A stretch of DNA of 64,000 nucleotides from Pandoraea pneumonica. GTDB lineage: Bacteria; Pseudomonadota; Gammaproteobacteria; Burkholderiales; Burkholderiaceae. Below the pieces are notes generated by a model that was given only the letters and a program-made list of their open reading frames with translations, had not been told where the DNA came from and did no database searches. The position numbers were made by a program, and so were the translations under genes. The DNA is taken from positions 682,001-746,000 of the forward strand of contig NZ_CABPSK010000002.1 of the NCBI RefSeq assembly GCF_902459645.1, in the 5' to 3' direction. Positions 25,165 through 33,240 of this stretch are shown here, one piece after another; within the stretch, counting starts at the first letter, position 1, and each line of letters begins with the position of its first letter.

Positions 25165-25731
25165 TCAGTCCTCGCTCTTCGTCTCAAGATAATGCTCCGC
25201 ACGCTCGATGCAGGCCTGATACTTCGATTGCATCAGAAAGGCAAAGTCGCGTTTGCGGATGCACTCGTCGATTTCCTGGCCGTTCCAGCAGAGAATCGTT
25301 TGGGGTTTGGTGAAATTCACCATCAGTTTTGCAGCGCTCGTGAAGTCGCCGCTGGTGAACATGCATCCGATCAATGTCGATGGCCGGCGCGTCAACTGAT
25401 TGCGTAGCTTCGCGATAGGCGCGAAGTCGATGCGCCGCTTGGTGCGCGACTGAAGATTCGAGTGATCCTTACACTCGATCATCGCGCTGATACCCGCGAT
25501 GTACACCAGCCCATCGATCTGCTCGATGTTCGAGGTATCCAACAGGCTGACGCTATACGGCCACCTCACCTGCGCACCACTCAACTCGAATCCCTTGAGC
25601 ACGAGATATTCCAGTGCCTTGCCTGGATCCCAGCCGGGCGTCGCGCATGTCACTACGGCATCCCATAGTTGCGTGATATCGGGCCAGTCGTAACGGCTCA
25701 CTCGATCGATGTATTGCGTGTCTGCTGTCAT
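25165..25731 (-). CDS. PD-(D/E)XK (restriction endonuclease-like/Mrr-type) nuclease
   Basis: The 188-residue protein has a compact PD-(D/E)XK pattern: Glu41 in GKALEYLVLKGFEL, then Asp73 in EQIDGLVYIAG and Glu86-Cys-Lys88 in AMIECKDHS. A helix with RNQLTRRPSTLIGCMFTSGDF follows, as in the Mrr/restriction endonuclease-like fold. No DNA-binding domain or methyltransferase is attached or adjacent. ATG 25731 was chosen because GGAG lies six bases upstream and a TAGAAT -10-like box lies at 25757-25762; longer readings have no ribosome site. It is the first gene of the islet operon. Role in phage defence or nucleic-acid processing is inference. Confidence 0.8.
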   Translation of the reverse strand: MTADTQYIDRVSRYDWPDITQLWDAVVTCATPGWDPGKALEYLVLKGFELSGAQVRWPYSVSLLDTSNIEQIDGLVYIAGISAMIECKDHSNLQSRTKRRIDFAPIAKLRNQLTRRPSTLIGCMFTSGDFTSAAKLMVNFTKPQTILCWNGQEIDECIRKRDFAFLMQSKYQACIERAEHYLETKSED

Positions 25732-25773
25732 ACCCATCTCCAACGAACTGGTGCCGATTCTAGGGGCGCTTGC

Positions 25774-25805
25774 GCTGCGAAAACGCAGCAACGCCGATAT
25801 ATCGG
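25774..25805. promoter_or_regulatory. hairpin and 12-bp palindrome upstream of the nuclease operon
   Basis: GCTGCG-AAAA-CGCAGC (25774-25789) and the perfect palindrome CCGATATATCGG (25794-25805) lie 43-75 bases upstream of the nuclease start. The -10-like TAGAAT (minus strand, 25762-25757) puts the first repeat over the expected -35 region. This is a plausible repressor operator, but no regulator gene is visible in the islet. Confidence 0.4.
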
Positions 25806-25904
25806 AAAGTCCTGATGGGCTATGACACTTCGGCACAAAAAACGGGGCGCAGATGTCACGCATTGTGAGTGTCCTCGCTTCCTGATAGCATGACGGCAGC
25901 TTCA

Positions 25905-25980
25905 ACGGAGATGGCATACCTCCGGCGTGCTTGATGTTCATACGCAAACCGCCCTGCAATGGGGCTGATGATGCCTGCAA
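25905..25980 (+). ncRNA. fluoride riboswitch (crcB motif) aptamer
   Basis: The sequence fits the crcB/fluoride aptamer. P1 is CGGAG (25906-25910) with CTCCG (25920-25924), enclosing the loop ATGGCAT. A variable stem follows (GCGT/ACGC, 25925-25945), then AAACC. P3 pairs GCCC (25951-25954) with GGGC (25962-25965), followed by the conserved TGATG and ATGCC (25971-25975). ATGCC is perfectly complementary to GGCAT (25913-25917), forming the expected pseudoknot. It lies upstream of a CLC-type antiporter gene, the classic target of fluoride riboswitches. Identified by eye against the known consensus; no covariance search was run. Confidence 0.85.
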
Positions 25981-25982
25981 GA

Positions 25983-26000
25983 TCCTGGCGTGCCGGGAGG
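25983..26000 (+). promoter_or_regulatory. Shine-Dalgarno-sequestering hairpin, expression platform of the fluoride riboswitch
   Basis: TCCTGG (25983-25988) can pair with CCGGGA (25993-25998) around a CGTG loop, including one G-U pair. The right arm overlaps the ribosome-binding site GGGAGG (25995-26000) of the 44-codon ORF starting at 26010. Coming directly after the aptamer, this suggests translational rather than transcriptional control: fluoride binding would free the Shine-Dalgarno sequence. The competing pairing is an inference. Confidence 0.6.
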
Positions 26001-26009
26001 TTGCGGGCT

Positions 26010-26144
26010 ATGTGTGTGGACGGATTTCGTTTCACTTCCCCATGCGGTTCCTCGCGACTGACTCGCGTCCTTCCGGCGGCGTTCAGGCGATTCGTCAATG
26101 GCATCGACCGATTCGATGCGTTGCCCTGTGTGTACACACCATGA
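26010..26144 (+). CDS. 44-residue leader ORF between fluoride riboswitch and CLC antiporter gene
   Basis: ATG 26010 is placed nine bases after GGGAGG and opens a 44-codon frame (starting MCVDGFRFTSPCGSS, ending ALPCVYTP). Its TGA at 26142-26144 overlaps the antiporter ATG (26141) as ATGA. The antiporter start has no ribosome site of its own, so translational coupling through this ORF is likely. The peptide has no recognised domain or membrane segment, three cysteines and several arginines. It may be only a translated leader, or a small protein. Confidence 0.6.
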   Translation: MCVDGFRFTSPCGSSRLTRVLPAAFRRFVNGIDRFDALPCVYTP

Positions 26145-27478
26145 AGATGTTTGACCGTTCCCCTTTGCGCGAGCTTGCCGACGTGCTGCCGCGCGCCGCC
26201 CGCGCGAGCGCTGTCGCTGCGCTCGTCGGCGTGATGGCCGGTAGCGCCAGTGCGTTGCTGCTTGTCGCGCTCGAAATCGCCACCGATACGCGCTTACTTC
26301 ACCCGTGGCTGCTCTGGCTGCTGCCGGTGGCTGGCTTCGCCGTCGGCTGGCTTTACTTACGGCTCGGCGCGAGTGTGGAGGCGGGCAACAACCTGTTGAT
26401 CGACGAGATTCATGACCCTCGCCGCGTCGTGCCGCTGCGCATGGCGCCGCTGGTCCTTGCCGGTACGGTCATCACCCATCTGTTTGGCGGCTCGGCAGGG
26501 CGCGAAGGCACCGCCGTGCAAATGGGCGGGGCGCTCGCCGATCAACTCACGCACGTCTTCCGGCTCTCGGGCGAGCAGCGTCGTGTGTTGCTGATGTCGG
26601 GGATTGCGGCAGGCTTCGCATCGGTGTTCGGAACGCCACTTGCCGGTGCGGTATTCGGTCTCGAAGTGCTCGCCATCGGCCGGTTGCGCTATGACGCACT
26701 GTTACCGTGCGTTGTGGCCGCACTCGTGGGCGATGCCGTGACGCGCGCATGGGGCGTGCATCACACGGCTTACACCATCGCACCGCAATGGTTCGGTGCG
26801 TCGATCTCGCTGTCAGGTGCCATGAGCGCCGCGGCGGCTGGTGTGGCGTGCGGTTTGGTCGGCATGGGCTTCGCGCAGGCTACGCACGCGATGTCTGGCT
26901 TCATGAAGCGGCGCATTGCTTACGCGCCATTGCGTCCCGTGGTGGGCGGGGTTGCGGTCGCCGCAGCGGCAACTGCTCTCGGCACGCCGCAGTATCTGGG
27001 GCTCGGCATTCCGACGATTGTCGACGCGTTTCACACGACGCTGCCCTGGTACGACTTCCTCGGCAAGACGCTCTTCACCGTGGTCACACTCGGCTCGGGT
27101 TTCAAAGGCGGGGAAGTCACACCGTTGTTCTATATCGGTGCAACGCTCGGCAACGCACTGTCGCACGTGCTGACGCTGCCGGCGCCGGTACTCGCTGGGA
27201 TCGGCTTCGTCGCGGTGTTTGCCGGGGCGGCGAATACGCCGATTGCTTCTACGCTGATGGCGATCGAAATCTTCGGCCCGCAGATCGGGAGCTATGCCGC
27301 GATCGCTTGTGTGTTGGCGTATCTGTGTTCCGGGCACACCGGCATTTACAAGGCGCAGCGCGTCGGACACGGCAAGCATGGCGTCGTCCCCGAAGGCACA
27401 CGTCTGGCCGATCTGCCCGCGTGGCGTGAAGCCCAACGCGCGCGTACGCAGGCAGCGGACGAGTCACCGCCACGCTGA
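26141..27478 (+). CDS. CLC-type anion channel/antiporter, probably fluoride-specific (CLC-F)
   Basis: This 445-residue membrane protein has about ten or more helices with the CLC signature GGSAGREGTAVQMGG (gating Glu at residue 122) and GSGFKGGEVTPLFYIGA. The usual chloride-selectivity motif GSGIP is replaced by GNNLL (82-86), a change typical of the fluoride-exporting branch. The upstream fluoride riboswitch strongly supports F-/H+ antiport and fluoride detoxification. ATG 26141 was chosen by the ATGA overlap with the leader ORF. The C-terminus overlaps the convergent DUF72 gene by 15 bases. Confidence 0.9.
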   Translation: MKMFDRSPLRELADVLPRAARASAVAALVGVMAGSASALLLVALEIATDTRLLHPWLLWLLPVAGFAVGWLYLRLGASVEAGNNLLIDEIHDPRRVVPLRMAPLVLAGTVITHLFGGSAGREGTAVQMGGALADQLTHVFRLSGEQRRVLLMSGIAAGFASVFGTPLAGAVFGLEVLAIGRLRYDALLPCVVAALVGDAVTRAWGVHHTAYTIAPQWFGASISLSGAMSAAAAGVACGLVGMGFAQATHAMSGFMKRRIAYAPLRPVVGGVAVAAAATALGTPQYLGLGIPTIVDAFHTTLPWYDFLGKTLFTVVTLGSGFKGGEVTPLFYIGATLGNALSHVLTLPAPVLAGIGFVAVFAGAANTPIASTLMAIEIFGPQIGSYAAIACVLAYLCSGHTGIYKAQRVGHGKHGVVPEGTRLADLPAWREAQRARTQAADESPPR

Positions 27479-33007: not shown

Positions 33008-33070
33008 AGAAAAAAAGAAAGCCCGCGAGGTGCGGGCTTAATCCATATCAGGAGGAGACATGGAGGAGAC
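33008..33070 (-). ncRNA. candidate trans-acting small RNA with two anti-Shine-Dalgarno motifs
   Basis: Read on the minus strand, a TATACT -10 box (33082-33077) is followed by a predicted transcript start near 33070. Two CTCCTCC motifs follow (complements of 33062-33068 and 33051-33057). Then comes a hairpin AGCCCGC/GCGGGCT (33038-33020), ending in TTTCTTTTTTT (33019-33010). Unpaired CTCCTCC next to a rho-independent terminator is the layout of Hfq-type sRNAs that bind mRNA Shine-Dalgarno sequences. The -35 region is weak. No ORF explains the region. An alternative is that the hairpin simply ends the lipase gene at 33241. Confidence 0.55.
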
Positions 33071-33240
33071 GAGTTCAGTATAGGACAACGTGTTGCGATG
33101 CACCATATGTAGTTTTGCGTAAGTGTCCGTATGTTGCGTTCATGCAACGATAAATAAATTCAAATAAATCAAACACTTATTTCTCTGCTTGCCAACTCGT
33201 CCCACCATGCTCCTTCCGTAATTCCGAATCACCCCTCTAT

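Follow-up and report, generated by a model that had tools for sequence, protein, structure and literature searches.

The 64,000-nucleotide stretch of Pandoraea pneumonica DNA analyzed here, called the window, carries on its + strand a fluoride riboswitch aptamer (25898..25984), an expression-platform hairpin (25973..26008), a leader ORF of 44 codons (26010..26144) and the gene of a CLC-F-type fluoride/proton antiporter of 445 amino acids (26141..27478). The antiporter was matched by PF00654 with an E value of 2.5e-72. Its best match among solved structures was 6d0j, a CLC-type fluoride/proton antiporter (E 1.1e-59), compared to 4.7e-10 for the best ClcA, and the NCBIfam chloride equivalogs scored far below their cut-off (best 98.1 vs 482 bits). 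These matches point to a member of the Voltage_CLC family that is closer to CLC-F than to the chloride CLCs, in agreement with the identity that the original prediction had given it. The protein is 90% identical to that of a named P. bronchicola locus and at most 73% identical to those of the other 79 named loci.

A crcB/fluoride aptamer with an ATGCC/GGCAT pseudoknot had been read upstream of this gene, and the Rfam covariance model had been proposed as a check. The model, RF01734, matched 25898-25984 with 48.8 bits, above the gathering threshold of 34 (E 1.8e-10). The pseudoknot strand GGCAT (25913..25917, + strand) can pair with ATGCC (25971-25975), as read from the sequence, and the aptamer pattern was found in 20 of 20 Pandoraea orthologues. 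The score, together with the presence of both pseudoknot strands, which are kept in relatives, supports membership in RF01734. Further upstream, a promoter-like TTGTGA and TAGCAT separated by 17 nt were read from the sequence (25863..25891, + strand). The consensus scan did not call this pair of boxes. In the 20-genome Pandoraea alignment, counted by eye, TTGTGA was exact in 19 and TAGCAT in 18, and the leader transcript probably starts near them. Elsewhere in the window, a Betaproteobacteria toxic small RNA (RF02278) was found at 33013-33071 on the - strand with 67.3 bits.

Leader ORF and expression platform

The leader ORF starts 9 nt past a GGGAGG Shine-Dalgarno (SD) sequence (25995..26000, + strand) that lies inside the hairpin. 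Its TGA overlaps the antiporter ATG at 26141 as ATGA, with the end of the stop at +4, as had been predicted. Duplexes with the anti-SD were computed with a 16S tail, and the antiporter start was given the better of two scores, that of the start codon and that of the position 6 nt on. The leader start gave -11.0 kcal/mol, a level reached by 0.1% of 2000 random positions, and the same value was obtained in all 20 Pandoraea orthologues. The antiporter start gave +0.9 kcal/mol, compared to a median of -2.3 kcal/mol at 2000 random positions, which bears out the claim that it has no ribosome site of its own. The 46 scored genes of the window had a median of -5.75 kcal/mol at their best candidate start. 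Across the 20 Pandoraea orthologues, the antiporter start ranged from +0.9 to -3.3 kcal/mol and was weaker than the random median in 18.

A GTG in the antiporter frame (26012..26014, + strand) lies within AUGUG at the leader start and is a possible second start, which would give the antiporter a 43-codon N-terminal extension. One explanation of the locus is direct in-frame initiation, in which an extended antiporter is made from this GTG in the window or from the leader ATG in the three relatives where the leader is fused in frame (L011, L023 and L025). GTG 26012 would use the same SD as the leader ATG, and AUGUG is described as able to start both frames in E. coli (PMC9841429). However, the GTG must compete with the AUG, AUGUG was found in this genome only (1 of 20 orthologues) and the fusion in 3 of 20. 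Also, there is no conservation in the extensions, in contrast to the good protein alignment from 26141, the proposed start, on. Direct in-frame initiation is thus very unlikely. A single long antiporter made from the leader site as a general rule was rejected, as the leader ATG is in the antiporter frame in only 3 of 20.

The hairpin has a predicted energy of -24.7 kcal/mol. In its outer stem, GCCTGCAA (25973-25980) pairs with TTGCGGGC (26001-26008), and its inner stem consists of TCCTGG (25983-25988) and CCGGGA (25993-25998). In the predicted fold, the GGGA of GGGAGG is paired and the final GG is in an internal loop. The hairpin that had been proposed to mask the GGGAGG of the short ORF was thus recovered by folding. 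The outer stem overlaps the pseudoknot strand by its GCC, and without GCCU the hairpin had a computed energy of -15.0 kcal/mol instead of -24.7 kcal/mol. For the inner stem by itself, the value was -8.3 kcal/mol. The folding energy of the whole leader was no better than that of shuffled sequences (z -0.30).

Folding constrained to the fluoride-bound state did not raise the exposure of GGGAGG in the 20 genomes. With full leaders, mean exposure went from 0.26 in the apo state to 0.17 in the bound state, and with short leaders from 0.33 to 0.32, with the inner stem still masking GGGAGG in the constrained fold. Riboswitch control of the 44-codon ORF, as originally proposed, is therefore supported by the predicted masking and not by exposure of GGGAGG on modelled fluoride binding. 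The gating of GGGAGG by fluoride is only plausible, since constrained folding did not expose it. A strong SD could compete better with a weakened hairpin.

Conservation in Pandoraea and routes to the antiporter start

Orthologues were found in 20 of 32 Pandoraea genomes (L009-L028) at a match threshold of E 1e-60. One further genome (G007) has a more distant homologue (63%), and the remaining 11 of the 32 gave no match at this threshold. All 20 orthologues keep the aptamer, the hairpin and GGGAGG. The leader ATG was present in 19, with ACG in its place in L027, and lies 81-143 nt from the antiporter start. The end of the leader stop relative to the antiporter start was +4 (ATGA) in 10 of 20, -4 in three, +14 in one and +32 in one, and in these 15 the leader is 33-48 codons long. 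The leader is fused in frame in three others. In L021, no stop of the leader frame falls near the antiporter start, and the frame runs open for 456 codons. The layout is thus broken in two of 20 genomes, L027 and L021. By parsimony on the antiporter gene tree, the frame relation between leader and antiporter changed seven times. The comparison of the 44-codon ORF across relatives, proposed with the original prediction, therefore had a divided outcome, in which the leader ATG was kept in 19 of 20 and ATGA in 10 of 20, while the peptide, length and frame were not conserved. A conserved leader peptide was rejected because frames and sequences drift across Pandoraea. In this genus, both the antiporter start and the leader ORF are readily annotated wrongly.

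At the level of alignment columns, the three positions of the leader ATG were identical in 20, 19 and 20 of 20 genomes. The contrast with the surroundings is small, since the three preceding columns gave 20, 19 and 17, and 5 of the next 11 columns reached 19. The 105 columns after the ATG with at most 10 gaps had a mean of 74%, and 29 of them reached 19 of 20. Runs of three columns with at least 19 of 20 were found after the leader ATG only in CAGGC and the adjoining GTC[G/A]A. CAGGC, kept in 20 of 20, belongs to a conserved element inside the leader ORF, GTTCAGGC (26081..26088, + strand), which is a candidate partner of CCTGG at 25984-25988. Among 150 family genomes, 15 of them Pandoraea, the pattern GGGAGGTTGCGGGCTATG was matched exactly in six, all Pandoraea; with one mismatch, it was matched in two Pandoraea genomes and G162, and a reversed-pattern control also gave scattered matches.

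Several of these features are near chance level. All 19 leader frames are free of stops before -7. In the same 19 genomes, however, 32 of the 38 alternative frames also lack a stop before -15. The absence of early leader stops is therefore only suggestive, and the open leader frame by itself is close to chance. The ATGA overlap by itself is not beyond chance, because it follows from a Met-Lys start and a leader in one of the two other frames. Neither ATGA alone nor the open frame alone was accepted as a sign of selection. The retention of GGGAGG and the hairpin in 20 of 20 genomes and of the leader ATG in 19 of 20 is beyond chance, and a GGGAGG that is kept together with an ATG 9 nt past it, at a long distance from a start that lacks its own site, is less easily put down to chance.

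The reading we prefer, with moderate confidence, is an ON switch that responds to fluoride at the level of translation. It would control access to a ribosome landing pad in place of the gene's own start, and the antiporter would be reached mainly by termination-reinitiation. Without fluoride, the GCC of the pseudoknot strand would join a 14-pair hairpin predicted to bury GGGAGG, the outer stem of which covaries in relatives. With fluoride, the pseudoknot would claim this strand and the outer stem would be partly lost; therefore, the hairpin would weaken from about -25 to about -15 kcal/mol, as computed. This weakening may be sufficient for ribosome access. Ribosomes would then load at GGGAGG and the AUG at 26010 and translate the leader, whose sequence is not conserved, as far as the AUGA. 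After termination there, they would start again on the antiporter, which has no usable SD. The role of the leader would be that of a path for ribosomes and not that of a peptide. Leader ribosomes would reach the region of the antiporter start in 18 of 20 genomes, because the stop lies at -4 to +32 in 15 and the frames are fused in three. The relay through a coupled leader ORF, as first proposed, is the most economical reading and fits these 18 genomes, but not L027 and L021. The relay step is suggested by conservation and by the ppe2 precedent discussed below. Against the preferred reading stand the near-chance open frame and ATGA, the modelled fluoride binding that does not expose GGGAGG and the two relatives that break the layout.

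The main rival is distant loading without leader translation, in the mode of the SAM-II riboswitch of S. meliloti metA, and the rivals considered here are not mutually exclusive. The gated GGGAGG would concentrate 30S subunits locally. Initiation would take place directly at the antiporter start, which lies 131 nt past the leader ATG, and the leader ORF would be incidental. In metA, a riboswitch-borne SD is reported to serve a start 74 nt downstream, and expression needs this SD and tolerates mutation of AUG1 (PMC9373788). Likewise, the SD carried by the Pandoraea riboswitch could serve a far-downstream start. As that report describes it, metA differs in that AUG1 is dispensable and shares the frame of AUG2, the two are separated by a terminator and SAM lowers translation. 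L027 and L021 fit distant loading better than the relay, although L027 is a single case of a relative without the leader ATG, and the near-chance openness of the leader frame also agrees with this rival. However, the ATG 9 nt past GGGAGG is kept in 19 of 20, and the distance of 81-143 nt from the leader ATG to the antiporter start exceeds that of metA. We consider distant loading rather unlikely. A further account, less likely than not, is a frame-independent landing pad. The masked GGGAGG-AUG would keep its place 81-143 nt upstream while the leader shifts freely in frame relative to the antiporter, and reinitiation, in-frame fusion and distant loading would be interchangeable.

Another explanation is transcript protection. 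Without leader translation, Rho would load on the C-rich, G-poor leader and terminate before the antiporter, and fluoride-induced translation of the leader would block Rho, an effect that could combine with reinitiation. A scan of 25700-26200 revealed no intrinsic terminator on the + strand, as this explanation would have it. C exceeds G between the leader start and the antiporter in 20 of 20 leaders, and between ATG+12 and CAGGC, 15 of 20 leaders rank in the top 10% for C minus G when compared to window stretches of equal length on both strands. The bias is modest, however, as the window's own leader is in the top 15% over this stretch and in the top 31% as a whole. The authors of the ppe2 study concluded that Rho did not explain the loss that they described (PMC11260477). 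Rho is thus quite an unlikely basis for the control of the antiporter.

Fluoride riboswitches in relatives and elsewhere in the genome

RF01734 was carried by 45 of the 80 named loci. All of these but L107 were viewed, and 34 non-Pandoraea leaders were scored after setting aside L034 (Pandoraea), L043 (no start located) and eight distant loci (L086, L093, L099, L103, L106, L110, L111 and L112). Starts of non-Pandoraea CLC-F genes behind the riboswitch were mostly weak (+1.9 to -4.0 kcal/mol in 30 of 34). A weak antiporter SD alone is therefore no proof of coupling, since it is usual outside Pandoraea too. In 2 of the 34, a leader ORF with a strong site (SD of -6 kcal/mol or stronger) ends no more than 10 nt from the gene. 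Aptamer class, gene and the competition between outer stem and pseudoknot are common to the Pandoraea locus and the relatives. The Pandoraea locus differs from them in the strong-SD leader ORF near the gene and in the distance from GCC to the start, which is 118-180 nt in Pandoraea and 82-132 nt in the non-Pandoraea relatives. The greater distance in Pandoraea may reflect the insertion of a leader, with the ribosome site shifted into the hairpin.

A platform recurs in the non-Pandoraea CLC-F leaders from L035 to L094, in which the outer stem opposes the pseudoknot and a long-range duplex, C:D, is formed. Several Burkholderiales CLC-F leaders also have, as judged by eye, a D:E hairpin over the gene start. 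In Roseateles terrae (L058), the CLC-F leader contains a 34-codon GTG ORF from -104 to +1 with an SD of -7.3 kcal/mol that ends at the gene start.

Covariation was scored on an alignment of 32 rows, made up of 28 of the 34 scored relatives, L030, L009, L019 and one filler, of which 31 were countable (28 non-Pandoraea). The homologous outer stem was paired in 98.6%, with changes on both sides at three of seven pairs, and helix C:D was paired in 78% of cells. Taken together, outer stem and C:D scored 0.369, higher than the slid versions and than any of 500 shuffles (mean 0.220), although the structure was drawn from one row of the alignment, which favours the real structure over the slid controls. 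Three of five measures exceeded all 500 shuffles. Pairs with both-side changes (246/500) and further pair types (43/500) were not above the shuffles.

The platform of the relatives bears on a further rival, namely that the Pandoraea leader ORF is a chance by-product and the riboswitch acts otherwise, for example on transcription or by C:D pairing as in the relatives. In 30 of 34 non-Pandoraea leaders, the start of the C:D duplex lies 38-48 nt before the gene, and in 19 of the 34 the duplex beats shuffles (p <=0.05). The rarity of coupled leader ORFs outside Pandoraea, the CAGGC kept in all Pandoraea leaders and the unexposed GGGAGG of the bound-state fold are all in keeping with such a by-product. 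However, the duplex beats shuffles in only 1 of 20 Pandoraea leaders (p 0.04-0.99), and GGGAGG followed by the ATG is kept in 19 of 20. This makes a chance by-product unlikely.

The same genome carries ten further fluoride riboswitches within 22 kb (G000:C1:184756-207026; L032 and L033). The genes among them encode a second CLC-F (70% identical), a Na/H exchanger, a pyrophosphatase, an enolase, CrcB, a Na/Ca exchanger, a CMAS-type methyltransferase, two MutS domain V proteins, a dynamin-like protein and DUF190. The region is likely a fluoride-resistance island, and the second CLC-F is present in 2 of 32 Pandoraea genomes. For comparison, an island described in Enterobacter cloacae FRM has six genes under one riboswitch (PMC5533749). 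In the Pandoraea region, several genes behind the riboswitches carry a strong SD of their own, and an apparent terminator stands before the CrcB gene, as judged by eye; a leader relay is therefore not the general solution of this genome. The Na+/H+ exchanger riboswitch is followed by a 32-codon GTG ORF (SD -10.8) that ends in ATGA, and the gene has its own SD of -9.7. This ORF, from -95 to +4 before the exchanger, was found in two Pandoraea genomes (L122 and L123), and in another genus (L124) a 42-codon ORF ends 9 nt before the exchanger start.

Known relays and meaning of the Pandoraea locus

The layout had been regarded as not commonly described, and this part of the original prediction needs correction, as the B12 relay of ppe2 (PMC11260477) and the SAM-II riboswitch of metA (PMC9373788) are published precedents. 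In M. tuberculosis, a B12 riboswitch is reported to control the start site of a short out-of-frame ORF, uPPE2, which overlaps ppe2 as AUGA. The same report describes ppe2 as having no SD and its expression as uORF-dependent, mainly by termination-reinitiation. Removal of the uPPE2 SD or AUG severely diminished ppe2 expression, and shifting the uORF stops off AUGA lowered it (PMC11260477). At the Pandoraea locus, the uORF start site is likewise predicted to be masked by the expression platform, the stop and start overlap as AUGA in the window and the downstream gene has no SD. The relay layout is therefore of a known kind, which looks rare and was described only recently. As the ppe2 report presents that system, it has a B12 aptamer and an OFF switch and is experimentally proven. 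The Pandoraea case has a fluoride aptamer, an expected ON switch and an antiporter, is known from sequence and has a leader frame that is not conserved.

Among open-licence PMC papers, we found no report of a fluoride riboswitch acting through a leader peptide or ORF, which is not proof that none exists. On the account of a frame-independent landing pad, the Pandoraea locus would be the first fluoride riboswitch known to us that works by way of a leader ORF, and perhaps the first such ON switch induced by its ligand. If the proposed relay from riboswitch to uORF holds, it would extend from one mycobacterial B12 switch, for which it is proven, to a lineage far removed from it, where the ligand is different and the sign probably opposite. 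The Pandoraea species form a natural mutant series, with ATGA, -4, +14, +32, fused, startless and stopless leaders, which lets coupling distance and frame be compared.
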